A stretch of DNA of 64,000 nucleotides from Vigna angularis. Lineage: Eukaryota; Streptophyta; Magnoliopsida; Fabales; Fabaceae. The notes under the pieces are model-generated. The model was not told the DNA's origin and searched no databases. It worked only from the letters and a program-made list of their open reading frames with translations. Shown here piece by piece: positions 7,481 to 52,719 of this stretch (within the stretch, counting starts at the first letter, position 1; each line of letters opens with the position of its first letter). Made by a program: the position numbers and the translations under genes. The stretch is taken from assembly GCF_016808095.1 (NCBI RefSeq), contig NC_068973.1:10102501-10166500 (forward strand), written 5' to 3'.

Positions 7481-7492
7481 CGCCCCCCTAAA
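7481..7492 (-). other. polypurine tract of the 7-12 kb copia element
   Basis: On the minus strand TTTAGGGGGGCG directly abuts the 3' LTR. This is the expected place for plus-strand DNA priming. Confidence 0.8.
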
Positions 7493-9812: not shown

Positions 9813-10106
9813 GACACAAAATTTGACAAAGCATGAGTAAACGTTTTTCTTTTCCTTGATCAGATAAGTTCAGATTTTTCTGGTCCATTCATCAACAAAA
9901 ATAAGAAAATACTTATTACCTCCAATGGATTCTTGCTCGAAGGGTCCACACACGTCTGAGTAAACAACTTCAAGAGATTGCTTTGCCCTCTTGTGTGATG
10001 TCTTCTATAACTGTTTCCTGGTCTTCTTTCCAATCACACAGCCTTCACACACCTTCTCTGGTGGATGAATCTCAGGAACTCCTATCACCATGTCTTTATC
10101 CTTCAA

Positions 10107-10598
10107 CTATCTCAGACTTCTAAAATTTAGATGTCCATAACGGTAATGCCACAACCACTCTTCTTCCTCGATATTGATAGATGATAAACACTGAATAGTG
10201 GTAGCACTAAGCTTCACCTTGAAAGTTTTGTTCTTTGCTAATGGAGCTTTGAGCACAAGACGTTTTCTATCATCAAATATCTCTATATGCTTTTGATGCA
10301 TGTTCATAGTGTATCCTTTTTCAAGTAAATGCCCAAGACTGAGCAGATTGCTCTTCATCTTTGGTACGTATAGCACGTTGTTCATGTACGCGGGTTGTCC
10401 GTTCTTGCTTCTGATCATAATCCTTCCGGCACCTTCGGCCATTATTACATTGTTATCAGCAAACCTCACTCTGCTTTTAACACTAGAATCCAGATCTATT
10501 AGCCACTCCTTCTTGCCTGTCATGTGATTAGAATAACCTGTATCTAAGTACCAGTAGTTGTCATTTTCTGCATGCTTCGTATTGATAGACATCAACAC
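10107..10598 (-). pseudogene. copia protease and pre-integrase segment (broken)
   Basis: This frame contains the aspartic protease motif YLDTGYSNHMTG, in which the usual Cys after DTG is Tyr. Next come LYVPKMKSNLLSLGHLL and the start of the integrase zinc region (WLWHYRYGHLNFRSL). It stops before the CxxC half of the zinc finger. It is one segment of the decayed polyprotein whose gag lies at higher coordinates. Confidence 0.9.
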
Positions 10599-10617
10599 AT
10601 GTTCAAATTCTTGACCC

Positions 10618-10985
10618 TTGTGTAACGCTCATTCACACTCGTGTGACGCTCGTTCAGTTTCGTTGTTGACGACCGTTTGGTTATACGACCGTTCGATTTC
10701 TTCATCAATATCCATTGACGTTCGTCCAGCTTCTTTGTTGATTAATGTTTGTTCATTTTCATTGTTGATGACCGTTCGGTTTCTCCATCAATATCCATTG
10801 ACGTTCGTCCAGCTTCTTTGTTGATTTCTCCATCATCTCCCGTTCGGTGAAACGAAAATATCCTTCCGGTCTCTTCAACACCCGCTCGGTTTTAGGCTTG
10901 ATTCATTCAATAGTAGAGACTGTTCGGAAGACAACCATTCTGTCTCATCACACGTCTGCACCCGTTCGGTAATGGACATCAACAA
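10618..10985. repeat. CGTTCG-rich repeat between gag and protease
   Basis: Phrases such as GACGTTCGTCCAGC, GACCGTTCGGTTT and CCCGTTCGGT recur. A block ATATCCATTGACGTTCGTCC is repeated 83 bp apart (near 10708 and 10791). It sits where copia polyproteins have a variable linker between the zinc knuckle and protease. Several stops on the sense strand show that it is no longer coding. Confidence 0.7.
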
Positions 10986-11072
10986 TATATGATCTGAATC
11001 AGAGTCACCTGTATCTTGAAAAAGATTTGCCTCATCACTCTTGTTCTTCTTTATGGCCTCATTGTGCCAGCA

Positions 11073-11891
11073 TTAAGACGAATAATGACCGAACTTACTA
11101 CATGTATAAAATTGGATATTCCTCTTATCAACATTCTTTCTTCCTCTTCCTCTCATTTGCTTTCCGCCTCTTTTGCTTCCATCTTTGTGTTCACTGTGTT
11201 CCTCTTCAGCATTCTGATCAGAGACATTCAGATTTCTACCTCTGGTTCGACCTCCCCGTGCTCGACCTCTGCTTCTTCCAGCGCTTTGTCCTCTAGGTTT
11301 AAAGCTGCTTCTTGCTTGTAAAGCTTGATTCAAACTCGTTTCATTTTCGGTTTTCTTTCTTTCAAGCAGGCGTTGTTCATGAGCTTCCAGCGAGTTCTGC
11401 AACTCTTCCACTTTCATGTCTTCCATGTTTTTGCTTTCTTCAATTGCTACAGCAATATGATCGTATTGCAGAGTTAGCGTTCTAAGAATCTTCTCCACGA
11501 TTTTCTTGTCCTTTACCACCTTGTCGCATGCTCTCATGGCGTTCACCACCATTTGTATCCTGCTTATATACTCAACAATCGATTCTTGTTCTCTCATGCC
11601 TAAGAATTTGTATTGTCGTTAGAGCGATTGTAGTTTGATCTTCTTGACCTTGCCTGTGTTGTCGTAGCCTTCTTGAAGAATGTCCCAGATTTCTTTCGCC
11701 GTGCCTGCCTTTGATACCTTCTGGAATATGGTGGCCGACACGCATTGGTGTAGCAGCATTCGGGCTTTACAATCTAATTTCTTGTTCTCTTTACGCTGTC
11801 GCTTTGTTTCTTCAGAATCCCCCTTCAATGGCTCTTTAAAACCCTTCTTGACCACTTCATCTACTTCTTGAAATCCAAGAATGACATCCAT
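11073..11891 (-). pseudogene. copia gag (two segments split by a stop)
   Basis: Segment 11891-11619 and segment 11597-11073 are in the same frame, divided by one TAA. They read as copia gag: AKEIWDILQEGYDNTGKVKK, then MREQESIVEYISRIQMVVNA, then an R/G-rich tail. The nucleocapsid knuckle survives only in part, since FYTCSKFGHYSS lacks the first Cys and runs into a stop just before the last one. Gag would normally package the element RNA, and this copy is defective. Confidence 0.9.
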
Positions 11892-24640: not shown

Positions 24641-24652
24641 GCCTCCCCTCAA
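24641..24652 (-). other. polypurine tract of the young copia element
   Basis: On the minus strand TTGAGGGGAGGC abuts the 3' LTR. The polyprotein stop codon (TGA, 24649-24651) lies within it. Confidence 0.8.
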
Positions 24653-27600
24653 GCTGGACGATGTATTGTCATCAGTCCAAGCTTGGGAACAATAGTCTTG
24701 AATCTGACGCGGTGAGGAAACTTGGTGAAGATATCGGCCAGTTGCTCGTCAGATCGCACGGGAAGAAGATTTAGAAGGCCCTCCTGGATTTTCTCACGGA
24801 CGACATGGCAGTCAAGTTCAATATGTTTAGTCCGTTCGTGAAAGCTCTGGTTATGAGCTATGTGCCTTGCAGACTTGTTGTCGCAGTACAAGGCTGGGAT
24901 TCCTGTCTCTTCAATCTGAAGGTCCTTTAGGAGATAACTCAGCCACTGTATCTCACATACAGTGGCTGCAAGGGCTCTATATTCAGCTTCAGTGGAGGAT
25001 CTAGAAACGGTCCTCTGCTTCTTAGATTTCCAGGAGATAAGGGAAGATCCAAAGAAGATACAGAAACCAGTTGTGGATCTTCTCGTGTCAGGGCATGTTG
25101 CCCAGTCTGAATCGCTAAAGGCTTTTAGCTGCATAGGAGAATCAACTGCAAAGAACAATCCCTCAGATGGTTTGGACTTTATATACCTGAGAATGTGCTG
25201 TATAGCACGATAGTGGTGATCAGTAGGTGAATGTACAAATTGACTAAGCAGATTAATTGAAAAACACAAGTCGGGTCTGGTATTTGTGAGATACAACAAC
25301 TTCCCTATTAGCCTTCTGTAAGGTCCTGGGTCATCTAGGTAGTTGTTGGGCTTGTATAGTGAACTTGTATCACTTAGGAAGGGAGTAGATGAAGGTTTGC
25401 ATCCCAACATTCCTGTTTCCTCCAGTATGTCCAAAGCATATTTTCTTTGACATAGGTGGATGCCCTTTTTAGATCTGGCCACTTCCATTCCTAGGAAGTA
25501 TTTGAGCTCTCCAAGATTCTTTATTCGAAACTTGTTGTGTAGAAGCCTCTTTATGCGATTGATTTCCACCATGGAGTTTCCTGCTAGCACAATATCATCA
25601 ACATATACAAGCAGAGCAGTGAAACTTGTAGGTGTTTTTCTAATGAACAATGAATGATCAGATTTGGATTGGGTGTAATTAGCATTTATAAGGAAAGTAG
25701 AAAGTTTCTCAAACCATTGTCTGCTGGCCTGCTTTAAACCATATAATGACTTAATTAGTTTGCAAACTTGTCCCTTATTTGAGACATTCAAACCTGGGGG
25801 TGTCTCCATATAGACTTCCTCATTAAGATCTCCATGTAGAAAAGCATTGTCAACGTCTAGTTGGTGTAGGAACCAATTGTTTGAGGCAGCTAGAGCAATA
25901 AGTAGCCGTACTGTGGTAAGTTTAGCCACAGGGGAGAAAGTGTCAAGGTAGTCTATGCCCTCCTGCTGTGTGTATCCTTTTGCCACCAAACGGGCTTTAT
26001 ACCTTTCAATGCTTCCATCACTTTTGTATTTTGTTTTGTACACCCATTTACATCCTATAGCGGTTTTTCCTGGAGGTAGTGAAGTCAAAACCCAAGTGTC
26101 ATTGTCTTGCAGGGCTTTGATTTCTCTCTGCATTGCCTCTACCCATTCATTCATGCCTTTGGCCTCACTGTAGGATTTGGGTTCCTTATTTCCAGTTACA
26201 GCCATAGTGTATCTTAAATGTTTGTCTGAAAAATTGTCACAGCACAAGAGATCAGAGATTGGATATGGAGTTTTAAAGGAATTCTTTTCAGTCAAGGAAT
26301 GGTTAACCTGGTGAACATAATCCTTCAAATACTCAGGGGTCTTTCTGGGTCTGTCAGATCTTCTACATCTCTGACTTTCTTGGTTGTTTTCTGTATTGTT
26401 GCTGATGTCTTCATCATCAGAGGGCAGTTGGACCTCTTCTGGATCAGTGACATCTGACCCTGTATGTCTGTCAGCATCAGTGGTATAGGGATCCTTTAGA
26501 AGATCAATGAGAGTATTAGCCCTGTCCTTTTCAGTATGACAGTCTTCCCTGCTCACCTGCAGATTTCTGTAGGGAAAAACATCTTCATGGAAGATGACAT
26601 TTCTGCTTATGATGAGTTCCTTTGTATTGATGTCAAGCACAATATAGCCTTTGACACCATTTTTGTACCCTAGAAATACACCTTTTCTAGCTCTAGGGTC
26701 AAGTTTGCTTCTGTTGTTGGTAAGAGTAGATGCAAAACATAAACAGCCAAACGTTTTGAGGTTTAAATATGTGGGGGGCAGATTGTAGAGAAGGTCATGT
26801 GGAGTTTTGTTGTTAAGAGTGGTGGTAGGCAGCCTATTTATGAGATAAACAGCATGACCAATAGCATAAGACCAGTAGGCATTAGGGATATTAGCTTGGA
26901 AAATGAGACCACGGGTGACATTTAGTATGTGTTGGTGTTTTCTTTCAACAACAGAATTTTGTTCAGGTGTTTCAACACAACTCTTCTGATGATTGATTCC
27001 ATGCAAGTTATAAAAATCTACACAACTAAATTCAGGACCATTATCAGATCTGATGGTTTTGATTGTCTTGTTAAACTGATTTTTAATTTTAACAACAAAA
27101 TTTTGTAATAAATCTCTAGTTTGCCCTTTATTGTTCATTAGGAAAACCCATGTGTGCCTACTATAGTCATCTACTATGGTAAGAAAATACCTATGACCAT
27201 GAACCGAAATGGTACTAAGAGGGCCCCATATATCACAGTGCACAATTTCAAAAGATTCAACAGTGACAGTAACACTCTTAGAAAAGGGTAATTTTCGTTG
27301 CTTAGCAAAGTGGCAGGTATCACAAACAATGTTAGTGTCAATTTTAACATAAGGAAAATTCTCACAAATCTGTTTTGTAACCCTTTCTCCAGGGTGACCT
27401 AGCCTACAATGCCACAAATTTACATCAGTGTTCTTAAAAGAGAAAGCAGTATTAGCAATGTATCTCTGGTCAGGTTCAGGCGAAGCTTGTAGGTAATAGA
27501 GTCCCTTCCAAGAGTTAGCACATCCAATCATCTTCAAAGTATGGTTCTCCTTTATCTGACAAGTCTTAGAGGTAAAAGTTAGGCTGCAGTCCAAATCTTT

Positions 27601-28956
27601 AATAAGACTTTGGACAGAAATCAAGTTGAAACAGAATTCAGGTATGTAAAGAACATTAAAAATGATAAAATCTTTTGAGAACTGTACTGTTCCTGCATGC
27701 TCAGCAGTGAGAGCAGTGTTGTTTGGTAATTTAACAGAGATAGGTTTAATTTTAAAGAAAGTGATAAAGTTTGTCCTATCATGGGTCACATGGTCTGTGG
27801 CCCCAGTGTCTATTATCCAGGAAAGATTACCTTCTCTATTTTCAGTGTCATTCCTTTGAACTTGATTGACTTTGTGGGTAGGCTCATCAATTTTATCCAT
27901 GATTCGGAGAAGTTTCTGCATCTGTTCTGCTGTAAAGGAGTTGAAAATATTGCTATTAGCAGTACCATTAGCAGTCTGTTGTGTGCTTGGAGTCCCCTCT
28001 GTTTCAGTGTTGTTTTGGCAAGCATTTACAGAATTCCAGTCAGCCTTTTTATCTTGATTGTTGTCACCCTTTTTGTACCAAGGAGGGTATCCGTGCTTAG
28101 AGTAGCACTCATCTATAGTGTGGTTCATTTTGTTACAGTATGAGCACTGTTTACCATAGTTAGGATTTCTACCTCTTCCCCTTCCTTGGCCACGAAATCC
28201 AGAACCCCTTCCTTGGCCTTTCCACTGACTGTTTTTGTCAGTCACATTTGCCAGGATTTTTGTATCTGCAGAGTTGTGTTTTTCCTGTCTCTCTTGTTGC
28301 ATAATGAGTGAGAAAACCCGGTTGATATTTGGGAGGGGTTCCATGAGAAGAATCTGTGTTTTAACAGTACTGTAAGAATCATTTAACCCTTTTAAAAAGC
28401 ACATCACATGCTCCATTTCTCTATATTTCAAGGAGACTCGTGACAGATCACAGCTGCATGGAATTTTGCATGTACAAGTGGGTATGGGTCTTAAAGACTC
28501 CAACTCTTCCCATAGAATCTTTAGATCAGTAAAGAACTGGCTAACTCCTCTCTCTCCTTGCCTAATGGAATGTATTTCTTGAAGTAAATCAGAAATCTTG
28601 AAGTAGTCACCTTTGGAAAATCTTTCTTTCAGTTCATCCCACAATTCTTTGGCTTCTTCAATGTATATGACACTTTCTGCAATCTGTGGTGATAGAGTCT
28701 TTGTTATCCAAGACAAAATCATCACATTGCATCTCTCCCATACGTCAAACAATGGGTCATTCTTCTGGGGTTTCTTTATAGACCCATCAATGAACTTTAT
28801 CTTGTTTTTAGAGAGCAAGGCTCTCCTCATACTTCTGCTCCAAGAGGAGTAGTTGCTGTCATTCAACGTCTGAGTAACCAGTGTGAGGCCTGGATTCTCA
28901 CCTGGATGTAGATAATAGGGGCTGGATGGATTGGAAAATTGATCCATCTGATCCAT
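24649..28956 (-). CDS. copia gag-pol polyprotein, intact, 1435 residues
   Basis: The ATG at 28956 (MDQMDQFSNP) is chosen. The open frame extends upstream to 29091, but that part crosses the primer site and LTR. Domains in order: gag with the block LTLVTQTLNDSNYSSWSRSM; CCHC knuckle CSYCNKMNHTIDEC near residue 270; aspartic protease WIIDTGATDHV near 380; integrase zinc region (LWHCRLGHPG ... CDTCHFAKQRK) near 515 and catalytic HCDIWGP, RSDNGPEF and VVERKH near 600-660; reverse transcriptase with GCKWVYKTKY and YVDDIVLAGN near 1118; RNase H with SDSDWATC and SSTEAEYRALA. All catalytic motifs are present and there is no internal stop. The products would be processed into virus-like particle proteins that copy the RNA and integrate it. 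Expression was not tested. Confidence 0.95.
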   Translation of the reverse strand: MDQMDQFSNPSSPYYLHPGENPGLTLVTQTLNDSNYSSWSRSMRRALLSKNKIKFIDGSIKKPQKNDPLFDVWERCNVMILSWITKTLSPQIAESVIYIEEAKELWDELKERFSKGDYFKISDLLQEIHSIRQGERGVSQFFTDLKILWEELESLRPIPTCTCKIPCSCDLSRVSLKYREMEHVMCFLKGLNDSYSTVKTQILLMEPLPNINRVFSLIMQQERQEKHNSADTKILANVTDKNSQWKGQGRGSGFRGQGRGRGRNPNYGKQCSYCNKMNHTIDECYSKHGYPPWYKKGDNNQDKKADWNSVNACQNNTETEGTPSTQQTANGTANSNIFNSFTAEQMQKLLRIMDKIDEPTHKVNQVQRNDTENREGNLSWIIDTGATDHVTHDRTNFITFFKIKPISVKLPNNTALTAEHAGTVQFSKDFIIFNVLYIPEFCFNLISVQSLIKDLDCSLTFTSKTCQIKENHTLKMIGCANSWKGLYYLQASPEPDQRYIANTAFSFKNTDVNLWHCRLGHPGERVTKQICENFPYVKIDTNIVCDTCHFAKQRKLPFSKSVTVTVESFEIVHCDIWGPLSTISVHGHRYFLTIVDDYSRHTWVFLMNNKGQTRDLLQNFVVKIKNQFNKTIKTIRSDNGPEFSCVDFYNLHGINHQKSCVETPEQNSVVERKHQHILNVTRGLIFQANIPNAYWSYAIGHAVYLINRLPTTTLNNKTPHDLLYNLPPTYLNLKTFGCLCFASTLTNNRSKLDPRARKGVFLGYKNGVKGYIVLDINTKELIISRNVIFHEDVFPYRNLQVSREDCHTEKDRANTLIDLLKDPYTTDADRHTGSDVTDPEEVQLPSDDEDISNNTENNQESQRCRRSDRPRKTPEYLKDYVHQVNHSLTEKNSFKTPYPISDLLCCDNFSDKHLRYTMAVTGNKEPKSYSEAKGMNEWVEAMQREIKALQDNDTWVLTSLPPGKTAIGCKWVYKTKYKSDGSIERYKARLVAKGYTQQEGIDYLDTFSPVAKLTTVRLLIALAASNNWFLHQLDVDNAFLHGDLNEEVYMETPPGLNVSNKGQVCKLIKSLYGLKQASRQWFEKLSTFLINANYTQSKSDHSLFIRKTPTSFTALLVYVDDIVLAGNSMVEINRIKRLLHNKFRIKNLGELKYFLGMEVARSKKGIHLCQRKYALDILEETGMLGCKPSSTPFLSDTSSLYKPNNYLDDPGPYRRLIGKLLYLTNTRPDLCFSINLLSQFVHSPTDHHYRAIQHILRYIKSKPSEGLFFAVDSPMQLKAFSDSDWATCPDTRRSTTGFCIFFGSSLISWKSKKQRTVSRSSTEAEYRALAATVCEIQWLSYLLKDLQIEETGIPALYCDNKSARHIAHNQSFHERTKHIELDCHVVREKIQEGLLNLLPVRSDEQLADIFTKFPHRVRFKTIVPKLGLMTIHRPA

Positions 28957-29050
28957 GGTGGAAGAACCAGTCCAAGAAGATACCAAGAAGATACCAAGAA
29001 GAGTAAGGATGCCAAGATCAGAGCCAACGGAAGCAGAGCAGGTACTAGAC

Positions 29051-29064
29051 CTGCTCTGATACCA
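29051..29064 (-). other. primer-binding site of the young copia element
   Basis: On the minus strand TGGTATCAGAGCAG follows the 5' LTR with no spacer. It is complementary to initiator tRNA-Met. Confidence 0.92.
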
Positions 29065-29533
29065 TTTTACAAACGGCCCAACACTGTGCACTTAATCCAG
29101 TGTGTGTGGCCCAGTCCAATGCGGCTTGGTATTTGCCAAGCATTGTGACTTCCAGCGTGGCAGAAACAGACCACGAGAAACCTGAGGGAGAAGCGAGATT
29201 AGGGCGTCGAGAAGCTTCGCCTTGGGAGCTGCTTTAGGAGCGATCTGGCGACGAAGGAGGCCACTGTTCGAGGTGATGATGAAGACAAAAATGGAGAGGA
29301 TAAAGACAGAGGTAAGAAAAACTCTTCCTTGTATTATTTTGGTGTATCTGAAAATATTACATGCTCTGTCAAATTGTATATTGAAACTGCAACAGAGAAG
29401 CTCTATTTATAGAGCTTCTGTAAACCCAAAACTGTAAACAAACAAAACTGCAAAACAACCGTAACAAACTAACTAACTGTAAATTACAAGACTACTGTCT
29501 CTTGTTGACAGTAGTGAATATTTATTCCCAATA
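29065..29533 (-). repeat. 5' LTR of the young copia element
   Basis: The 469-bp promoter LTR. It differs from the 3' LTR by C/T near 29246 and by one extra GT in the GTGTGTGTGG run near 29101. Transcription should begin here toward lower coordinates. Confidence 0.95.
29397..29418 (-). promoter_or_regulatory. TATA box inside a perfect palindrome, 5' LTR
   Basis: On the minus strand the TATA-like CTATAAATAG lies at the centre of a 22-bp inverted repeat with 10-bp arms (GAAGCTCTAT/ATAGAGCTTC, 2-nt centre). The same structure is at 24504-24525. Confidence 0.7.
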
Positions 29534-34095: not shown

Positions 34096-37000
34096 CTAAT
34101 TTTTCTTGTCTCTGTGATCTCCGGGGGACCCAGAAGCGCTTTTGGGGCTAGAAAGTGGCAAAGGTGGTTGAAGAAACATCAAACTTCCTGGTTGTGAATT
34201 AGCCGGTGATTTGTTCAAGAAGCTTGAAGCACACCCATTGACTTTTGGAGATGAAGGTGAGGCAAAAGATGTTGGAAGCATTTCACCCCATTTTATTTTC
34301 TGAATCAGATTTTCTAATGTACCTTGGTTTCCCTGAATGCTTCCTGAACCAATAACTGAAGAAAGTGCCGCTGCCAAAGCTGACTGAAAATTAGGGTCTG
34401 CTGTGATTACTTTCGTTGCTGCAGCTATGGTGTCCGGCAGAGGAGAGATTGGATTGTTGTTCCTTTGCATGAAGGAACTGTAGATGTTCTCCATGGGTTG
34501 TTGTTTACCAAGGTTTATGTTGCCAAGGACATTGACATTGGCATTGGTATTCCTGTTGTTATTATATGGTTGAGTGTTATAGCTGAAAAAGCCGTTGGTC
34601 CAAGAAGTTGTGTTAGATTGGGAGGAAGTGAAGCTGAGGCTTGTGGAAGGAGGGTACCTGTGAGGGTTGTTGTAGTTTGAATTTGAAGTGAATTTGACAA
34701 AAGGAGGAGAAGAGGAGGATGGATTGGAAGTGAGGTCGAGAGTGATGGTGGGGTGTGAAGGTGAAGATGAGAGTGAAGGATGGGAAAGGTAGTATTGATT
34801 TGGTTGGGAAGAATCTGGGAGGGAAAAGTTTATTCCATGAAGATCTGCGGCAGTGGTGGTGATGTTTGGGGAAATTCTTGATCCAGAGAGTGAGGTTGAT
34901 GATCCAGACAATAGCATGGAAGCAGCTGCGGAAGTGGTGGAAGCCATGGCTGTTGCTGAAAGAGGAAGAGGGTGGTTGTGGATTCCTTCGTAGGTGGTGA
35001 TTAATATCGACATGTCTTGAGCACATCTTTGTACCTTAAAGTGTTGCATATATAGTAACAGTTAGGCTAATATATAATTTTGTTCTATGCTAATACAAAT
35101 GATTGAAAACAACTTACATTCAAACATTGTTTGATAGGTAAAACAATTTAAAAATTAAATTAAGAAAACTATATATTTACTTTTAAAATATAGAGAATAT
35201 CAAATGATAGAATAGAAATAAAAAATAAATTCCAATTAAACAAGTTTATACCTTATAAATATATTTAACCAAAAAAAATGAAATATTGTTATATGCATTA
35301 AAATAGTGTTAATAAGATAATATAATATATGTTGAAATATCATTGACGTACGTGTCGACCTTGGTAAGATATCATGATACCTGTGAAAATAAAAATTCTA
35401 TCTTCTATTTTTTTTTCTCTTTTTATCCTCTATCTTTCCATTTTCAAATTTTTAATATTATGTACAAGTTAAAATACAAAAATATTCACATACATTAAAA
35501 AATTAAATATAATCACTGCAATAAATTAATAATAATATTTATAGTAAAATTAAAATTAAAAATACTATTATGATTAGTTACAATTATTGTAATTAACATA
35601 TTTTGTAAAAATATTTTTTATATAATATTAATATAAAAAATACAATAATATTACATATTATAATAATTTTTATAATTATAATTAGTTGTAAACTATTGTT
35701 ATCATAGAAAAATAAATAATACTAATTATAAATTATAAGAATACTAATATTGTTAATATTGATTTTATCATCTTAATTATTATATATTTAACTCTTTTAA
35801 ATAATTATTGAAATTTTTTTAATATTTAATTTGTAAGGAATATTAAAAATAAATAAATAAAATTACTAAACGAGACAATTACAAGAGAGAGAAAAGAATT
35901 TGACATGTGATCATAACTCACTATATATACACCATTAATTATTTTAACATTAATCTATTGACATATAATAGAATATAATATATACAGCATACTTCTATAA
36001 AGTATTAGATGTTAGGGTTTGGTATACAATTAAAGTACGTGTATGGTATATAATTAAAGTACGTGTATAGTATACAATTAAAGTACGTGTATGTATCATC
36101 ACTCAAAAATTATATTTAAAATAAAACTATTTTCTGTAAAATTATGCTACGTACAATAAAAAGAAACTATTTCTTTCCTAATTTTTATTATCTTTTTGTT
36201 TTCTTAGAGGAAGATAGAATGTTTTGACATCACTTCTTCTTTCACATCCATATAATAACAGTAAATAATAATATATTAAGTTACTTAATTAAAATATAAA
36301 TTAAATTATTGAAGTTAAAATCAATAGAGTGAGTTGTAGATATATGAGATGTGAAAGAATCACTCTCCTTTCTCAAACCAAACAAAAACATAACTATTGG
36401 GTCTCCACGAATAGTATTTCTTAAAAGTAAAAGAAAAGAGGTGAAAAAAAGTCAAATGAATTGGAATGTGAACATATTATCATTCATTGCAAAGTTATAA
36501 TTGATAGAATAATTGTAGTTGGATACATATTTATATTTATTTGACAAATATTATAAAAATAAAATAATTATAATAGAGTAAATATTTGTATTTTATAAAA
36601 AAAAAATATTTTGATATAGATTTTTATATTTTGACATAGAACATATGTTAATTTTTTACTAATTTATTATTTATTTGTTATTGTGTTAATATATTCTAAA
36701 TTTAATGAGAAAATATCATGTGTTTGTATCAAAATATTGTCAAAATTTTCATGTTAACGTATCATTATCTTTTTAGAAAGAAAAAAAGAATAACAATTAA
36801 AGAAATGTAGTTTGAAATTAATATAAAAAATTTGTGTGTGTGTGTGACAGTATTATAAAGTATTAAATGTAATTGATAAGTGATAGAAAATAAAGAGAGT
36901 CTGAAGAGTGGTAAATACCTGCTTTCTCACTGGGCATGATGGTGCAACTGTGCAACGATAATAAGCTCGAGGACAAGGATTTCCCTTTGAAATCTTCTGG

Positions 37001-39070
37001 CCATATTTCCTCCATTGACATCCATCGTTCAACTGTTTCAACCAAACCAAACAATAACATTTTTCCATTATCCAACGTTTACAACAAAAGTAAAAACAAA
37101 AGGTTGCATTAGAGGTATTTACAGTTGGGGTGTCACATCTTGCTCTCACACAAACTCTTGCTTTCTTCGCAGGGTTTTGCTCAGCAATCTCATCTCTATT
37201 TGTCTTCTGTCCCTTGCTTTCTCCACCACCTTCTTCTTTTACCACTTCTTCAACACTATTGCTAGGGCTTGGATTCCCCACATGTTCACTTGCACTTCCA
37301 GATTTTGATGTTTCGAACTTGCACTCCAATCCAAGGGACAACCCTTCTTTATCTTCTTCTTTCAATGTTTTAGGGACTTTCCCTTTCTCGTTGCTTCTTA
37401 TAATTGGAATTCTTCCAAGACTCAGGGAAACTAGTTCTGATTCCTCCATCGCTCCTTCATCTTCGCCATCGTTGTTCGGTTTCTCAGAACAATCTTTTGT
37501 CTCTTGTTCAACTATACTGTGGAATTGCATTTGCAGTGTTCGGTAATCATTTAGTATTCTGTTCAAACGCATCTTTAATCTTTGATTTTCTTCTATCACT
37601 TCACCCATTTCGGCTTTCGCATTTTCAAGTTCATCAGCCTGCAACCATGTATATATAGATCAGACCAATCATACTATAATTTAATCATCAATATTATAAT
37701 TATTGAACAATCTAATTAACCTCTTCCATTTTGGATAGGCAAGAAACATTTGGCCCAACCTCGACGGTGGATCTTTCAGGAGTAGCCAGTGGTGGCTCCT
37801 GTAAACGCATTAAAAAGTCAATATATGCATACACAAATGCAATTTAATTTTTTCCTTCGTTCTTTATCTAACTAGGGTTACCAAGCCTTATACGTTGAAA
37901 GTGTACATGTAATGATGCTCGACAATTTTTCCCCTTCTTTTGATATAAGAAGAACTGAGAATCTTTCGGGTTTGCATGTGCAATGAATTGTCACATTTTA
38001 GACATCGATAACATGATTGCTAGCTTTCCGGCACATGCATGAGTCAACTTTAAAAACGCAGATAAACTATTCAAATTCTTTTCAAAAGCTATGAAAAAGG
38101 TGTGTGCTGAATTATATACGTGCATATGGACATGTTTTTACTTTCAACCGAGTTCAATTTTCATCAAACCAAACAATTATCACATATTAGTGTTAAGAAT
38201 GAGCACTGTGCTGCACCAGATCGATCGAGTATTATGATAAATATATGTAGAAACTCATTCTATGCATATCTTTAGTAAATTAAAATCACTATAGATCTCA
38301 TGCAAGTCTATCAAATTATTGGAACCTCTTATAAGCTAATTAAGCTGCTTTAATGCAACCTAAAACGCTTATTTTATGTTTCTAATAATTTGATAAACCG
38401 TGTTTTAGTGTATTAAAATGTTATGGTCAATATATAATTTGGATACCCCATAAGATAGACCCATCAAAGAGAAATAATGAGAAATACCAACGAAATATCT
38501 AAGCATATATAGAGGAATATAAGATGCGGTCTTTATTTAGTATATTAAGTCATTAAATAACAACAAGGATTCATAATCTTCCATCAAAATTTCTTTTTTC
38601 TTTTTCGTTCTACTTCACACATACCCAATTCAATAATTTCAACAATTAACAAGGTTTTATTTGTAGACCTCATAATTGAACATGAACACACAGTTAAAAC
38701 TGGATTAATTTTAACTAAATATTGCATAAATAAAAAGGTTTGAACCGTAAGTTTAATCAGAAAATCGATTATCGAAGTGCTAACAAGATGAAATATTAAT
38801 TGTAGACGTTGAGAAAGAAAAAGAATTTCGAGATCAGAACAGTTTGGTTGTTCTTTTAAACCTTTTGACTGAATTAACAAATCGAAAACCACACACAGAA
38901 ACATATTTTGTGAAGGTTACAACATAAATATCAGAACAGTAACAGCATAGAATTATTTTCACCTGCATAACAATCTCTTGTTGACGACGGTGTTGTTCAT
39001 CTCGAGGACTTGATTCAGTTCTGTTCTCTTCCTTGACCTGGTGACCGGATGTTTGAGAAGGAAACTCCAT
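34096..39070 (-). CDS. WRKY72-like: group IIb WRKY transcription factor (WRKY72/61/9-like), five exons, 584 residues
   Basis: Exons on the minus strand: 39070-38963, 37798-37721, 37638-37123, 37032-36919 and 35034-34096. All introns are GT-AG in phase 0, with lengths 1164, 82, 90 and 1884 bp. Residues 63-105 form the Leu-rich coiled coil typical of subgroup IIb. LSLGL at 162-166 fits an EAR-type repressor motif. KKAR near 220 is a likely nuclear signal. The single WRKY domain has WRKYGQK at 241-247 and a zinc finger of C261, C267, H291 and H293 (C-X5-C-X23-H-X-H). The intron falls just before VQRC, the intron position specific to groups IIa and IIb. A conserved [13 protein letters not shown] block follows the domain. 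The protein should bind W-boxes (TTGAC) in the nucleus. Relatives act in defence and development, which is family knowledge. Membership of the WRKY72/61/9 branch is judged by eye. Confidence 0.95.
36017..36095. repeat. 25-27 bp tandem repeat, three copies, in WRKY intron 4
   Basis: TATACAATTAAAGTACGTGT and two close variants follow one another. Intron 4 is otherwise plain AT-rich sequence. Confidence 0.75.
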
Positions 39071-44135: not shown

Positions 44136-44257
44136 GACAACTACACGACATAAAACTTCAAGAATTGGAAGCTGAGTAATGGTCTGGTCATAAAATTATA
44201 AATAAATTTTTTAATTTAACTTTTGAGTTTGAGGTGATAAAACTAACGCAAAATTAG
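44136..44257 (+). repeat. 122-bp direct repeat of flanking DNA, left of the gypsy-type element
   Basis: GACAACTACACGACATAAAA through CGCAAAATTAG is repeated at 52598-52719, directly after the 3' LTR. No mismatch was noticed on reading. It behaves like an abnormally long target-site duplication. Confidence 0.9.
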
Positions 44258-46625
44258 GAGGTGGGCCTCATGTGGGTGGCTACACGTTTCTGGAAGAGGG
44301 AGGGGCGGTTACCTAACAGCAGATGGTGCAACTGTAAGTGGTGGGGGCTCCATTCTTTCGGCAGCATCAAAATGGGTAGTGGGTCTTCCCACTTTGGAGT
44401 GCTTCAGCCACTAAGGGAGACACCATCATCTCCTTCGTTAATGGACACTGCACCAAGGAGTAGAAGGGTTCTTCCAGCAGTGGAGGGTCCAATTTATTTG
44501 TTTTCCCTTAAAAGTAAGAAGCCATGGATTCATGGGGGGTTGGTTCTGAACTTCGGGAAGAGTAGAATTCTTGCTGCCATATCTCTGAGAGGGGTGTTCG
44601 GTGCTGCATCTGGAGGAGCAATAGGCTTGCTGCAAAATCTGGAAAGGGAGAGCTGGCATTATAGCAGAGGACTGGAACAACAAAGGGAGGAGGAACACAG
44701 TGCAAAGATTGGTTCAAGATTTGCTAGGAGGTCTTCAAGAGGTAAGGGGAGCTAGATCCTTTTCTTTGGATTGTATGAACCATGTATGTGTGTACTGAGA
44801 TTTATGATATAGTGTTGTTGATGAACAAATTTCGTACTTAGAATGACTTTATTATGCATGAATCTGTATGCCTGGTAGTACAATTATGTTGTTGAAGAAA
44901 ATCTGGGTAGAAGGGGATGAAAATTGGGATTTTTCTGGTTTCTGGAAAAACCTGCAAATCTGCATGATTCTGCAGATTTACGCGTACGTCCAAATTGTTG
45001 GAGTGAAAATGGGACGTTCGTCCCATTATTAAGAGCGTTCGGTTTTGTGTTCAGCATTGGCGTTCGTCCTTCAATCATAGTGTAGCGTTCGTCTAAACAG
45101 TATTGGCAGTAATCTAATAGTGTTCGTCTTAGTGAGCGTTCGGCCAAACAGGGTTTATGCTCTATTGTACGTTCGTCCTTCCCAGTGAGCGTTCGCCAGT
45201 GAGCGTTCGCCAGTGAGCGTTCGTCCTTCCAAGTGAGCGTTCGGCAGTGAGCGTTCGTCCCAGTGAAGCGTTCGTACAAATAGTGGAGCGCTCGTCCAAA
45301 TAGTGAGCGTTCGTCCAAATTGTTGAGCGTTCGTCCAAATAGTGAAGCGTTCGTCCAAATAGTGAGCGTTCGTCCTTAACACATTGGTTTGAGCGTTCGT
45401 CCGCGTTCGTCCAAATAGTGAAGCGTTCGTCCAAACAGTGAATGAGCGTTCGTCCGAATAGTTGGCGTTCGTCCAAACAGTGAGTGAGCGTTCGTCCAAT
45501 AGTGTCCAGTGAATAGTGCTCGTCCAAATAGTATTTTGCAAATATGTTGAATTTTAAGTTCCTTTGCTTTTAGATTGAATTATGTGTACCAATGTTTGGA
45601 ATATTATGTATGACATGAATTATGTGAATGTATGAAATATGTTGGAATTGTTGGGATAATATGGTAGTATCTGATTATTCATAATTGGGGTTAAGGTGCA
45701 ATGTAACAGTAAGTTATGTTATTTAAATATTTCGGTTACAATTTATGAATATTGGATCAAAAGTGAATGATGAACTATATATGAGACGAAATGAAAGTAT
45801 GAATGATTAAATGAGCGTTCCAAGGAGGAACGACTCAGAATTTGATTATTGAGATTTGTAAAGAATGAATGTGGGAAGCTTAGCCGGTTGTTCATCCTGA
45901 TGTTCCGTGAGTACTCGTCCTCACGTAGAGGGGGTACGTCATGTGTGGGAACGGCAGGAGGTCCTAGTCCTAGGGTATCTGGACAGATAGGACTAACCTC
46001 GGGTGGCAGCTGATGAGAGTTCCAGTTACTACATCACCCGGGTGCACGAACATCGAAGCTACACAGAATTCATTCTAGTCCGGACGAGTCTGTCTATGAA
46101 GTAACAAGTCGGGGTATAAAGTAACAAGTATTGTAATGTTGGTTTACCACGTTTGGATGACTTTTGCATGTTGTATGAGTGGGTGGAATTATGGTTTAAT
46201 GAATATGCTCTAATTGTTCTTTTATACGAATTTAAGTATGATATCATTGAATTTAATTGTTCTATCTGTATAACATGTTTTTATATCTAGCTCACCCTTG
46301 CATTGTTTTTGTTATGTACTGTTTGGGTATGTTTCTTTGGCGATGATCATCCACTTGGATGGGAGCAGATGTTGTCGCGGAGTTTCCCTTGGATCAAGAG
46401 CTAGAAGTTGCTGATTTTGCAGAATAGTCTTCTTAGAATTTATTGATTGAACACTTGTAGTGTTTAATCCTTTCAATTGTTTAAGTTTAAATTTTCAGTT
46501 TCTTTTATTTGGATGACTGTAATTTATTACATTTAATTACACGTCAAAATTCCGACTGTTCTCTATATTTGAATGTTAACGTCCTCATTATATAATATTG
46601 ATTATTATATAATTGGGATGTTACA
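44257..46625 (+). repeat. 5' LTR, lacking its first 37 bp
   Basis: It starts GAGGTGGGCCTCATG, which corresponds to position 38 of the 3' LTR, and ends GATGTTACA. It contains a 164-residue frame (44261-44755) that exists in both LTRs only because they are recent copies. Confidence 0.93.
45020..45535. repeat. GAGCGTTCGTCCAAATAGT array in the 5' LTR
   Basis: About 25 irregularly spaced copies of GCGTTCG(T/G)CC occur, usually in the phrase GTGAGCGTTCGTCC(A/T). Minus-strand frames here (44884-45541) encode repetitive DERS/GRTL/WTNA peptides and are repeat artefacts. The array is copied at 50992-51507 in the 3' LTR. Confidence 0.9.
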
Positions 46626-46629
46626 TTAA

Positions 46630-46643
46630 TGGTATCAGAGCAG
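46630..46643 (+). other. primer-binding site of the gypsy-type element
   Basis: TGGTATCAGAGCAG lies four bases (TTAA) after the 5' LTR and is complementary to initiator tRNA-Met. Confidence 0.92.
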
Positions 46644-46767
46644 TTCTTCCTTAGAAACCTGTAGGTTGTGGGTGCGCTTCGTTTGTGATTGTGTACTTTG
46701 GTCCCGGATTGGAAGTTGTGTTGGTTTGTGTCAGGCTAATGGTATTTCTTTCTGTATGAACAGAAAA

Positions 46768-47290
46768 TGGTACCTACTTTTTCTCCTCCTTCGTCTTAGG
46801 GAGTTGATCCGTCTGACTCTAATCAGATGCTGAATGCGGTGTTCCAAGCGTTGCAACAACAGAATGCTGCATTGGTGGAGTAAAATACCATAACCCTGCA
46901 TAATCTAGAAGCCGCAAGGGTATTTACCGAGAACGCGAGAGTAACATCTGAGAACACTTAAAGACAATCCATTAAAGTGTTTGACTAGTGGCAGGACCGT
47001 TCAGGGTGTTTTCTCTTCTGTTATTCCGGTCCAAGAATGGAACTTGGTAAGCTTTCTGCAACACCATTCAGCCTGGTTTGATGGGAAGTGCAGTTCGAAT
47101 GAAGCTGATCAGTGGTTTAAGGACATTGAGAGAATTCGTAGTGTTAAGAGATGTCCAGATGAGGACGAGGTATCATATGATGAGTACTTCCGTACAGTGT
47201 AAGGTATGACCTGGAGATTGAATTCCTTCAGTTAATACCGAGAAATATGTCATGACTGAGTATGCCGACAGGTTCGAGCATTTACTCTGA
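46768..47290 (+). pseudogene. gypsy gag remnant
   Basis: It reads MVPTFSPPSS, a stop, then DSNQMLNAVFQALQQQNAAL with further stops. After a frameshift it reads HSAWFDGKCSSNEADQWFKD and IERIRSVKRCPDEDEV, the start of the chromovirus gag core. Stops and shifts make it non-functional although the LTRs are nearly identical. No knuckle, protease or polymerase follows. The trace ends near 47290. Confidence 0.85.
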
Positions 47291-48366
<1,076 letters not shown>

Positions 48367-48919
48367 TTAATGGAAAAATTCTCGGACGGGTTGTGGTGGT
48401 CTAAGGGAGAGCTCCGTCGAGGGAGCTCTGGTTCGGAATGTGAGAAGCATGGGTGGAGGGATTTGTCGTTCGTCCCTGTCATCTTCGATGATGATCGGAA
48501 CGGGGAACAAATTCAGCAGCCTCGGCGCCCTCATAATTACCCAACCGTATTCTTCAAAAAAAAAAAAAAAAATTGTGTCAATAATAGAAGGGAAGAATAA
48601 TATAATTTAAATAAAAATAAAAATAGTGGTAATTAGGGTTCTTACCATACATGTACAGCGGCAGCTGAGAAAATACGGTGCCAGTGGGGTCTAATTCCGC
48701 TTGCCAGCGCCTGACCCGGTTACCATGATTGTTGAACCAGCAGTGTACATTATATTCACTGACTTCTCCAAAGGCCCTGAGTCGAGATGCAATCTCGACG
48801 ACTTGGGCTCTGCTGGGATGTGTGACCCCGTAGTTGAAGATATTGGTCATCATTCTGACCTGATCATCAGTAGGTTTCCACCGCTGACCGGTGTACCTCT
48901 CCATCTCCATCTCACTCAT
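48367..48919 (-). CDS. WUSCHEL-related homeobox (WOX)-like protein, 152 residues, cargo of a retrotransposon
   Basis: Coding exons 48919-48646 and 48551-48367 join across a 94-bp GT-AG intron with a T-rich end before the acceptor. The frame continues in phase to a TAA. Residues about 12-73 form a WOX-type homeodomain: RWKPTDDQVRMMTNIF, then NPS-like THPSRAQ, then helix 3 NVHCWFNNHGNRVRR. Most WOX proteins have WFQN there, so Gln-to-Asn and the loss of the basic KARER run are unusual. LLNLFPV at 103-109 resembles the WUS box, and ELSLR near 138-142 resembles a short EAR motif. A leader intron and TATA box lie upstream. Family members are nuclear regulators of stem cells and organ growth. This copy is divergent, antisense to the element, and may be a captured gene or a young pseudogene. 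Confidence 0.75.
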
Positions 48920-48938
48920 CCTTTCTTTCAAAGTGTTT

Positions 48939-49780
48939 CTAAAGCATAAAAATAATGAAATAAAATAAAAAGAACAAAACAAAAATCGTCAGTGTTTTCT
49001 TGATTTGTTTTGGTTCCTTTTAAGTTTACTTCGTCCAGGCGGTCTTTGTTGTTTCGGTGTCTAGTCTCTGGTCTGTTTCACGGTCCTCGCAAAGGTTACT
49101 AAACGGATCTATGTCCATTTGTCTTGGTCCATTATTGTCCATGTTCGGTTCATACAAATAAAATTCCTCTTTTTAAGTTTTCTGTTTTTATGGGGTACGT
49201 GGCGTTGTTCTACCCGATTGTCTCTGCCATACCCTCAATCGAGGGGAGATTAACGTCTGGTTTCCAGCCGATATACCCCTTATCTTTGTTAAGGCAGTGT
49301 GTTCTTAGATTTTTGTTAATAAAAGGAAGATAGAAGAAGAAGAAGAAAGTAAATGTAGGAGCAGAAGTGAAAATAACAAAACGGAAAGTAAAGAGGAAAG
49401 CAGAATGTAAGTGCGAGAAATAAAAGCTCAGAAAAGAAATAGTGTGTGAAAGGAAGCAGAAAGAAGAAAGGAAAGAAAAGAAGCGAGAAGTAAAGAAGAA
49501 GGAAGAAGTAAGGTAAAGGAGAGATGGGTAAAGAAAGAAAGAAATAAGAGAAGAGAAGTACTTACTCGAAGCGGAGCAAAACCTTGGAACGGGAAGATTG
49601 AAGTTTGGCTAGAAAGGGCTCCCGATCTCGCGTTCAAGATCTCCGATCTCCAACACTCAGGCGTTCAGATCTCGCAAGCTCCCACACTCAGAACTCTCAG
49701 TGCTCAGATCGCTCTCTCAGATGCTCTTAGATCTCAACGTTTCGAAATGTCGCCCAACGCGACTAGCACCTCGTTTTATA
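48939..49780 (-). promoter_or_regulatory. promoter, leader exon and leader intron of the WOX-like gene
   Basis: On the minus strand TATAAAA lies at 49780-49774. The predicted leader from about 49745 to 49566 contains no ATG and has many GATCT phrases. CGA|GTAAGTAC at 49565 is a strong donor. TTTATGCTTTAG ending at 48939 is a good acceptor 20 bp before the ATG at 48919. The intervening intron begins with a CT-rich stretch (49330-49555), as is common in plant leader introns. The gene thus appears to have kept its own start signals. No transcript evidence is available. Confidence 0.55.
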
Positions 49781-50176
49781 GCCAAGGAACCTCACTGTGT
49801 CCACAGTTCCGGTCACGCATACCGGAACCTTCAATAGTATCGGTTAATAATAATAAAAAAAAAAAAAATTTAGTATGCGGTTTTTGCCACATTTTGGGAG
49901 TAAGAAACATTCAATTAGAGAGGATCTCTTGCTATGTGAGTAAGTGTAGTTTTGACCTGATTTTGGTGTGAGATGTGTTATGTATGTTGATATAGAATTG
50001 TCTCTTTGTATGTGGTGGGAGTTGTCCTATTGAGCTCTTTGAACGGTGGGAACTGCCCGGATAAGTTTGTTATATGAGTTGTGGGATGGCAACTCTACCT
50101 AAGAGATAGGGGACAAGATGAGAGAGACGTATCTCAATTTATGTTGGTAAGCTTAATTTTCGAGGACGAAAATTTT
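49781..50176 (+). other. internal 3' region of the gypsy-type element
   Basis: The segment near 50150-50176 (TTAATTTTCGAGGACGAAAA) is the typical end of gypsy pol/leader sequences just before the polypurine tract. The rest upstream shows no pol motifs. The left part may belong to the upstream DNA of the WOX-like gene, and the join is not evident. Confidence 0.45.
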
Positions 50177-50181
50177 TGTTG

Positions 50182-50190
50182 TTGGGGAGA
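50182..50190 (+). other. polypurine tract of the gypsy-type element
   Basis: TTGGGGAGA directly before the TGTAAGGACC start of the 3' LTR. Confidence 0.8.
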
Positions 50191-50191
50191 A

Positions 50192-52597
50192 TGTAAGGAC
50201 CGTATATTCTTTGGAAAAGAATTGTGGTGGAGGTGGGCCTCATGTGGGTGGTTACACGTTTCTGGAAGAGGGAGGGGCGGTTACCTAACAGCAGATGGTG
50301 CAACTGTAAGTGGTGGGGGCTCCATTCTTTCGGCAGCATCAAAATGGGTAGTGGGTCTTCCCACTTTGGAGTGCTTCAGCCACTAAGGGAGACACCATCA
50401 TCTCCTTCGTTAATGGACACTGCACCAAGGAGTAGAAGGGTTCTTCCAGCAGTGGAGGGTCCAATTTATTTGTTTTCCCTTAAAAGTAAGAAGCCATGGA
50501 TTCATGGGGGGTTGGTTCTGAACTTCGGGAAGAGTAGAATTCTTGCTGCCATATCTCTGAGAGGGGTGTTCGGTGCTGCATCTGGAGGAGCAATAGGCTT
50601 GCTGCAAAATCTGGAAAGGGAGAGCTGGCATTGTAGCAGAGGACTGGAACAGCAAAGGGAGGAGGAACACAGTGCAAAGATTGGTTCAAGATTTGCTAGG
50701 AGGTCTTCAAGAGGTAAGGGGAGCTAGATCCTTTTCTTTGGATTGTATGAACCATGTATGTGTGTACTGAGATTTATGATATAGTGTTGTTGATGAACAA
50801 ATTTCGTACTTAGAATGACTTTATTATGCATGAATCTGTATGCCTGGTAGTACAATTATGTTGTTGAAGAAAATCTGGGTAGAAGGGGATGAAAATTGGG
50901 ATTTTTCTGGTTTCTGGAAAAACCTGCAAATCTGCATGATTCTGCAGATTTACGCGTACGTCCAAATTGTTGGAGTGAAAATGGGACGTTCGTCCCATTA
51001 TTAAGAGCGTTCGGTTTTGTGTTCAGCATTGGCGTTCGTCCTTCAATCATAGTGTAGCGTTCGTCTAAACAGTATTGGCAGTAATCTAATAGTGTTCGTC
51101 TTAGTGAGCGTTCGGCCAAACAGGGTTTATGCTCTATTGTACGTTCGTCCTTCCCAGTGAGCGTTCGCCAGTGAGCGTTCGCCAGTGAGCGTTCGTCCTT
51201 CCAAGTGAGCGTTCGGCAGTGAGCGTTCGTCCCAGTGAAGCGTTCGTACAAATAGTGGAGCGCTCGTCCAAATAGTGAGCGTTCGTTCAAATTGTTGAGC
51301 GTTCGTCCAAATAGTGAAGCGTTCGTCCAAATAGTGAGCGTTCGTCCTTAACACATTGGTTTGAGCGTTCGTCCGCGTTCGTCCAAATAGTGAAGCGTTC
51401 GTCCAAACAGTGAATGAGCGTTCGTCCGAATAGTTGGCGTTCGTCCAAACAGTGAGTGAGCGTTCGTCCAATAGTGTCCAGTGAATAGTGCTCGTCCAAA
51501 TAGTATTTTGCAAATATGTTGAATTTTAAGTTCCTTTGCTTTTAGATTGAATTATGTGTACCAATGTTTGGAATATTATGTATGACATGAATTATGTGAA
51601 TGTATGAAATATGTTGGAATTGTTGGGATAATATGGTAGTATCTGATTATTCATAATTGGGGTTAAGGTGCAATGTAACAGTAAGTTATGTTATTTAAAT
51701 ATTTCGGTTACAATTTATGAATATTGGATCAAAAGTGAATGATGAACTATATATGAGACGAAATGAAAGTATGAATGATTAAATGAGCGTTCCAAGGAGG
51801 ACCGACTCAGAAATTGATTATTGAGATTTGTAAAGAATGAATGTGGGAAGCTTAGCCGGTTGTTCATCCTGATGTTCCGTGAGTACTCGTCCTCACGTAG
51901 AGGGGGTACGTCATGTGTGGGAACGGCAGGAGGTCCTAGTCCTAGGGTATCTGGACAGATAGGACTAACCTCGGGTGGCAGCTGATGAGAGTTCCAGTTA
52001 CTACATCACCCGGGTGCACGAACATCGAAGCTACACAAAATTCATTCTAGTCCGGACGAGTCTGTCTATGAAGTAACAAGTCGGGGTATAAAGTAACAAG
52101 TATTGTAATGTTGGTTTACCACGTTTGGATGACTTTTGCATGTTGTATGAGTGGGTGGAATTATGGTTTAATGAATATGCTCTAATTGTTCTTTTATACG
52201 AATTTAAGTATGATATCATTGAATTTAATTGTTCTATCTGTATAACATGTTTTTATATCTAGCTCACCCTTGCATTGTTTTTGTTATGTACTGTTTGGGT
52301 ATGTTTCTTTGGCGATGATCATCCACTTGGATGGGAGCAGATGTTGTCGCGGAGTTTCCCTTGGATCAAGAGCTAGAAGTTGCTGATTTTGCAGAATAGT
52401 CTTCTTAGAATTTATTGATTGAACACTTGTAGTGTTTAATCCTTTCAATTGTTTAAGTTTAAATTTCCAGTTTCTTTTATTTGGATGACTGTAATTTATT
52501 ACATTTAATTACACGTCAAAATTCCGACTGTTCTCTATATTTGAATGTTAACGTCCTCATTATATAATATTGATTATTATATAATTGAGATGTTACA
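50192..52597 (+). repeat. 3' LTR, complete, 2406 bp
   Basis: It begins TGTAAGGACCGTATATTC and ends GATGTTACA. From 50229 on it matches 44257-46625 without net length change. It includes the GCGTTCGTCC array at about 50992-51507. Confidence 0.93.
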
Positions 52598-52719
52598 GAC
52601 AACTACACGACATAAAACTTCAAGAATTGGAAGCTGAGTAATGGTCTGGTCATAAAATTATAAATAAATTTTTTAATTTAACTTTTGAGTTTGAGGTGAT
52701 AAAACTAACGCAAAATTAG
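52598..52719 (+). repeat. 122-bp direct repeat of flanking DNA, right of the gypsy-type element
   Basis: Second copy of 44136-44257. It is followed by TGATCAAAATC, the presumed continuation of the original chromosome. Confidence 0.9.

Follow-up and report, generated by a model that had tools for sequence, protein, structure and literature searches.

A predicted WUSCHEL-clade gene carried in antisense by a family of non-autonomous Ty3/gypsy retrotransposons in adzuki bean

The window analysed here is a stretch of 64,000 nucleotides from Vigna angularis (adzuki bean; NC_068973.1), and positions 44257-52597 of it are occupied by a long terminal repeat (LTR) retrotransposon, lying on the plus strand, whose interior carries a homeobox gene of the WOX type in the opposite orientation. 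An earlier note on this DNA, made from the letters alone, had described near-identical LTRs, a primer-binding site (PBS) and a polypurine tract, and all three were located: aligned over 2369 bp, the LTRs show 9 mismatches and are free of indels, the PBS reads TGGTATCAGAGC, which we take to be of the tRNA-iMet type, and the polypurine tract reads GGGGAGAA. The rates used for LTR dating run from 6.5e-9 to 1.3e-8 substitutions per site per year, and this divergence then corresponds to an insertion age of about 0.15-0.29 million years. The terminal TG...CA of the LTRs is present as well, save for the TG of the 5' LTR, and the same set of features is found in other elements. No pol is left in the window copy, the open frames in its gag remnant are all of 85 residues or fewer, and a Pfam scan of the gag fragment gave no match; the assignment to Ty3/gypsy is therefore made through relatives with gag and pol (described below). 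The window element is a non-autonomous LTR retrotransposon of the Ty3/gypsy type, and a young copy.

The minus-strand gene model was found much as the earlier note had drawn it, with a TATA box, a leader intron, a homeodomain exon, a 94-bp intron and a last exon ending in a stop; both introns are GT-AG, and the spliced open reading frame (ORF) is intact and encodes 152 residues (Table 1). The predicted protein matches the Pfam homeodomain (PF00046, E 1.7e-7) and, among PDB sequences, STENOFOLIA (STF, E 3.4e-11) and WUSCHEL (WUS, E 1.4e-10). A structural check was made on P0001, a copy 95% identical to the window protein: its predicted model contains a three-helix homeodomain, with block-mean confidence (pLDDT) of 80-93 and low confidence in the remaining protein, and in the PDB the homeodomains of STF and WUS match it best. 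For the motifs, we took the WUS-box to be TLxLFP, together with a C-terminal EAR-like motif. The window protein has LLNLFP, without the T, and TLDLFP is found in most proteins of subfamily 3 (the three subfamilies are described below); in 24 proteins drawn from all three subfamilies LFP is invariant, and EL.LR is invariant or nearly so. With a WOX homeodomain and both a WUS-box-like and an EAR-like motif, the cargo gene is, judged by its sequence, one that encodes a small WUSCHEL-clade transcription factor.

Table 1. Features of the retrotransposon and its antisense gene in the window (positions are those of the window)
Feature	Position	Strand	Remarks
Flanking duplication, left (122 bp)	44136..44257		base 44257 shared with LTR start
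5' LTR	44257..46625	+	37 bp gone from its start, including TG
Tandem GCGTTCGTCC-type array in 5' LTR	44990..45510	+	limits approximate
PBS TGGTATCAGAGC	46630..46641	+	same site in L057 and L058 (subfamily 2) and L070 (subfamily 3)
Gag remnant	46767..47163	+	truncated, frame-broken; 71-73% DNA identity, over PBS and gag, to Ty3/gypsy relatives L065-L068
Cargo block	47300..49870	-	occupies the place of most of gag-pol in relatives
Second coding exon with stop	48367..48551	-	WUS-box-like LLNLFP and EAR-like ELSLR
Second intron (94 bp, GT-AG)	48552..48645	-	predicted; GT and AG in 30/30 loci
Homeodomain exon	48646..48938 (coding sequence 48919-48646)	-	Pfam PF00046
Leader intron (GT-AG)	48939..49565	-	predicted; GT and AG in 30/30 loci
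Untranslated leader exon	49566..49750	-	predicted; 5' end approximate
TATA box	49774..49780	-	TATAAA in 29/30 loci
Element 3' tail	49870..50191	+	ends in polypurine tract; found in 28/30 loci
Polypurine tract GGGGAGAA	50184..50191	+	directly 5' of 3' LTR
3' LTR	50192..52597 (2406 bp)	+	complete, TGTAAGG...TGTTACA
Flanking duplication, right (122 bp)	52598..52719		identical to left copy over 122 bp

The window copy is one of many. A protein search with the window protein returned 58 clusters, all of which bear a Vigna angularis name at NCBI and whose 257 member sequences are pooled over assemblies; profile searches add diverged groups, mainly from V. angularis, with one match in V. radiata and two in V. 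umbellata among the matches listed. When the cargo DNA was used to search its own genome, as the earlier note had proposed, it gave 586 first-look candidates (40 of them scored) and proved to be present on all 11 chromosomes (C1-C11), with an LTR-flanked layout in most of the loci read. A subfamily-2 protein query of the genome gave 1018 first-look candidates, of which 150 were scored, and 278 matches; by manual count, 129 of the 145 homeodomain-exon rows listed are without a stop, a few of which could be other WOX loci. Copy numbers given here are lower bounds plus first-look candidates. A chance ORF was also considered, and is ruled out by the 58 protein clusters and the many genomic copies.

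Thirty loci, the window copy included, were read with 1.5-kb flanks; these loci were not drawn at random but are those whose DNA matches the window best. A PBS/gag remnant, whole or partial, is present in 28 of them, and the 3' end of an LTR lies on the gag side in 25 and abuts the PBS in 22, counts limited in some loci by the length of the flanks. The leader intron and the 94-bp intron keep GT and AG throughout (30/30), the TATA box is kept in all but one, and the ORF is intact in 27; the broken copies are one with a stop (L005) and two with frameshifting deletions (L006 and L007). These counts bear out the proposal that an LTR element has copied an antisense, intron-bearing gene together with the promoter region of that gene. 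Conservation in most copies of a family is what marks an antisense additional ORF (aORF), and it is seen here among loci selected by similarity to the window.

More distant copies fall into two further subfamilies, whose proteins are 46-49% (subfamily 2) and 36-38% (subfamily 3) identical to P0001. In all six subfamily-2 loci that were read, either the tail or the gag remnant is present and is arranged in the same way. Two subfamily-2 elements were read whole (L057 and L058), and both have an LTR pair (94.8% and 99.8% identical, the latter over 1894 bp), a PBS, a gag piece, the antisense WOX gene and the tail; target-site duplications (TSDs) of TCCTA and ATAAA stand at the ends of the two, and both retain a short piece of the protease region of gag-pol, which suggests that pol was lost in steps. 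In subfamily 3, 9.9 kb was read at each of two loci, with no gag-pol in either; one of them (L070) has an LTR pair of 92.2% identity, a PBS, the antisense WOX gene and the tail. Since the gene sits antisense in LTR elements of three diverged subfamilies, the WOX cargo is a long-resident accessory gene of this retrotransposon family and no fresh capture.

Homeodomain rows with stops number 8 of 116 in the subfamily-1-like group, 7 of 25 in subfamily 2 and 12 of the 41 best-scoring in subfamily 3 (manual counts, in which some rows are segmental duplicates), an excess over subfamily 1 with Fisher p of 0.006 and 0.0006 for subfamilies 2 and 3, respectively. That the older groups have decayed more agrees with selection acting while elements are active, and not with retention of each copy by the host. 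Separately, the subfamily-2 WOX loci L034-L036, together with C3:29995354, 30018250 and 30041043, recur at a spacing of about 23-31 kb, and the near-identity of L034-L036 where compared, with this spacing, suggests segmental duplication of element-bearing DNA.

The gag remnant, used as a query, finds relatives without WOX. Four of these (L065-L068) were read over 6 kb each and have no WOX match, and in the one of the four that was scanned the Pfam domains come in the order gag, protease, reverse transcriptase, RNase H, integrase, as in Ty3/gypsy. All four share PBS and gag with the window element, and three (L065, L067 and L068) share part of the 3' tail, which is also present in subfamilies 2 and 3. 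It follows that the WOX block occupies the former place of most of gag-pol. The earlier note had proposed that the element, its gag being dead, moved with helper proteins. Movement in trans is likely, as the copies read lack most of gag-pol and relatives with gag-pol exist; the state of gag, on the other hand, is no mark of the window copy, the remnant being common to 28 of the 30 loci.

Another reading is that the element recently captured a host developmental regulator, so that a WOX gene still serving the host is now being spread. The promoter-like TATA box, the introns and the WUS-clade motifs of the cargo would all suit such a transduction, as would the existence of ordinary WOX-like loci in the genome, but we consider it improbable. 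With a WOX2 query (150 of 614 candidates scored), the presumed host WOX loci appear as 11 homeodomain rows, not checked singly, of 58-78% identity, whereas the element copies listed reach at most 49%, and no close donor gene was seen in that search. Nor was one found among the matches listed in the protein and profile searches, one of which scored the best 120 of 3612 candidates; the LTR-free donor for which the earlier note had suggested a search did not appear, the presumed host WOX loci being clearly separate and none of them close. A tree of homeodomains separates the element proteins, as a single group on a long branch with support of 100, from those of WUS, WOX2 and STF that were included. 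The gene is moreover carried by three diverged subfamilies, its constraint looks like that on an element's own gene, and a decay of copies once inserted would account for the greater share of broken copies in the older subfamilies.

In most copies that were studied, the coding capacity of the gene appears to have been preserved by natural selection. Genomic nonsynonymous and synonymous divergence (dN and dS) was computed between copies, as had been suggested, for 27 of the 30 loci after the three broken copies were dropped, and the Nei-Gojobori (NG86) means over 351 pairs are dN 0.037 and dS 0.126. A codon-model grid over 25 distinct sequences, with a fixed tree and no recombination term, has its optimum at an omega (dN/dS) of 0.3 and kappa 5, with a log-likelihood (lnL) of -1632.7 compared with -1661.3 at the best point having an omega of 1. 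Against the window copy, 29 copies show only 2 indels in 13.3 kb of coding sequence, where the rate in the leader intron predicts 168 and that in the gag remnant (2.87 gap openings per kb, from BLAST matches of 27 copies) predicts about 38. With the window copy set aside, 26 of 29 copies are intact, and neutral substitution predicts that 8-15 would have an ATG and be without stops. A protein-only neutral simulation, based on the window protein and on 24 nearly full-length proteins out of 59 in subfamily 1, gave 32 changes in helix 3, the recognition helix, where 11 are observed, and 17 in the EAR region, where 6 are observed; the mean BLOSUM score of the changes is 0.22 compared with -0.47 in the simulation, so the changes are more conservative than neutral ones. 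Purifying selection on the antisense WOX gene is thereby shown, statistically, for subfamily 1. The earlier note had named a unique locus, or a lack of constraint, as grounds for giving up its proposal; both points were examined, and the locus is repeated and the gene constrained.

These figures bear directly on the suggestion that the gene is an unused passenger, intact only where copies are young. The window copy is indeed young, as is the subfamily-2 element whose LTRs are 99.8% identical, and dN is not below the divergence of the 3' flank. An omega near 0.3, 2 indels where some 38 to 168 are predicted, an excess of intact copies over the neutral expectation, and the retention of LFP and EL.LR across subfamilies together make a passenger very improbable in our judgement. 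Selection at the level of codons, and the gathering of indels in the introns and leader, likewise make it hard to credit that the antisense RNA is what matters rather than the protein, regulating the element by way of double-stranded RNA, although a role of this kind has been proposed for antisense ORFs of other plant elements in the part of PMC7264820 consulted. An RNA role and a protein role could coexist.

We consider it very likely that, taken as a whole, these observations are explained by a non-autonomous Ty3/gypsy family with a long-resident and selected antisense WUS-clade accessory gene. The antisense gene would have replaced most of gag-pol, and, as it runs opposite to the genomic RNA, its introns could not be spliced from that RNA. 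Reverse transcription would then copy the gene whole, promoter included, as the retention of introns implies, with the proteins for copying probably supplied in trans by the gag-pol relatives. From a gene lying in sense orientation, introns would be expected to disappear when the genomic RNA is spliced; the survival of the introns is thus plausibly due to the antisense orientation, and their complete retention matches what this predicts. Most likely a protein is made from the antisense mRNA and aids the element, and it may do so by binding DNA, regulating either the element or the host cells that express it. Enrichment of a WUS-type motif (taken as TTAATSS) in the element is weak and is inflated by the two LTRs, and it was not used. 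A further idea, which we regard as unlikely, is that the element has domesticated a plant stem-cell factor whose targets are the precursor cells of shoot or germ line, or the LTRs within those cells; if it were true, transposition would happen where new copies are inherited.

Several observations weigh against this explanation, or at least temper it. In the neutral simulations, changes in the homeodomain as a whole (82 compared with 100 and 96) and in the WUS-box region (14 compared with 20 and 24) are within the simulated range. The noncoding yardsticks disagree, because dS is 1.8-fold above the divergence of the leader intron while the 3' flank, with a divergence p of 0.039, is no more diverged than dN. 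Constraint is uneven along the protein, with a dN/dS of 1.5 over residues 1-12 and 0.75 over residues 114-131, and the genomic estimates come from the 30 best matches to the window and are made without recombination between copies. The second subfamily-3 locus (L069, also read over 9.9 kb) contains the WOX gene, tail, purine tract and the start of an LTR, and shows no full LTR pair, PBS or gag. The recognition helix, which is WFNNHGNR in the element protein and WFQNHKAR in WUS, is altered in such a way that DNA binding could be changed or lost. Finally, the supply of helper proteins in trans is inferred, the splice sites are predicted, and the transcript and protein are products expected from the DNA.

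The insertion of the window copy is likely to have been non-canonical. The copy is flanked by a duplication of 122 bp in place of a short TSD of 5 bp, and the truncated 5' LTR joins the left duplication at one shared G. This departure belongs to the one insertion and not to the family. Among ten other copies for which the outer ends were fetched, both ends were located in six, of which four have an exact 5-bp TSD, one has none and one is in a tandem arrangement; the family can therefore integrate in the standard way. The simplest account is that an end-truncated cDNA was captured during repair of a break with long overhangs, which would explain both the 122-bp duplication and the missing 37 bp. 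For the duplication alone, one might suppose instead that the element inserted between the units of a pre-existing tandem 122-bp repeat and that a later deletion took the 5-bp TSD and 37 bp of the LTR. No unusual integration is then needed, in keeping with the 5-bp TSDs of other copies, but insertion exactly at the junction and a second event are required, and the duplicate copies are identical over 122 bp; we think this history doubtful.

Some further observations may be recorded. The flanks of L010 (L040) contain an additional LTR and PBS near the 3' end, so that LTRs stand in tandem and a single 5-bp TSD encloses the whole. The GCGTTCGTCC-type array of the 5' LTR is repeated in the 3' LTR, at about 50960-51480, and in an annotated protein from another adzuki locus (P0044) similar repeats are read through after the homeodomain, with 13 motif hits compared with a mean of 0.23 in shuffles. 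Elsewhere in the window, a single open frame of 1480 residues on the minus strand (24649-29091) encodes a Ty1/copia gag-pol, with Pfam gag, integrase and RVT_2 domains, which suggests a young copia element. A second Ty1/copia element, interrupted, lies at 7488-11618 (minus strand) and has open frames, of which that at 7941-9869 matches RVT_2. A WRKY transcription factor gene in exons occupies 34096-37659 on the minus strand, with the first part of the WRKY domain in the frame at 36853-37659; the last part of the domain is matched weakly by the frame at 34096-35061.

Antisense accessory genes as such are already known in plant LTR elements. The portions of PMC7264820, PMC11963269 and PMC4093653 consulted describe additional ORFs in antisense (aORF-3R) in Grande (gene23), RIRE2, Retand (TRP28) and pvRetro of common bean (ORF2), with products that include TRP28, SMC and a few other domains or unknown proteins. 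As in those elements, the adzuki gene is an antisense accessory gene placed 5' of the 3' LTR and retained in most copies; for the aORF-3R elements, the same portions report an own promoter (in Grande) and a suspected nuclear or DNA-binding protein. What sets it apart is that its product can be recognised as a WUS-clade factor, that its introns are conserved and that its element has no pol. The term homeodomain is absent from PMC7264820 and PMC11963269, and the term homeobox from PMC4093653. Gene transductions by LTR elements, such as maize Bs1, usually have the captured gene in the sense direction and number one or a few copies, according to the part of PMC7264820 consulted; they too place a cellular gene within an LTR element, whereas the adzuki cargo is antisense, present in many copies and old. 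Compared with WUS, STENOFOLIA/WOX1 and WOX2, the element protein has the same homeodomain fold and WUS-box-like and EAR-like motifs, but its homeodomain is only 35-49% identical to theirs (eight element-type proteins; 37-43% for the window protein), it has a length of 152 residues and a changed recognition helix, and it has been multiplied by LTR elements. Among the matches listed in the open-access literature (subscription journals and preprints being outside that scope), no paper describes an LTR element that contains a homeobox gene, of the WOX type or otherwise. What is new is an antisense accessory gene that is an intron-bearing WUS-clade factor, as predicted, under purifying selection.

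The family is a clear example of how a regulator gene that contains introns can, when carried in antisense, be multiplied along with its promoter region by reverse transcription, under selection. The role of antisense accessory genes in plant retrotransposons becomes testable here, because the protein class has known DNA targets and phenotypes. There is also a consequence for gene-family studies. An expansion of the WOX family has been described in Vigna reflexo-pilosa (PMC10357499), in passages that make no link to retrotransposons, and from these passages we suspect the same element family; what is counted as expansion of the WOX family in Vigna genomes may consist of retrotransposon copies.

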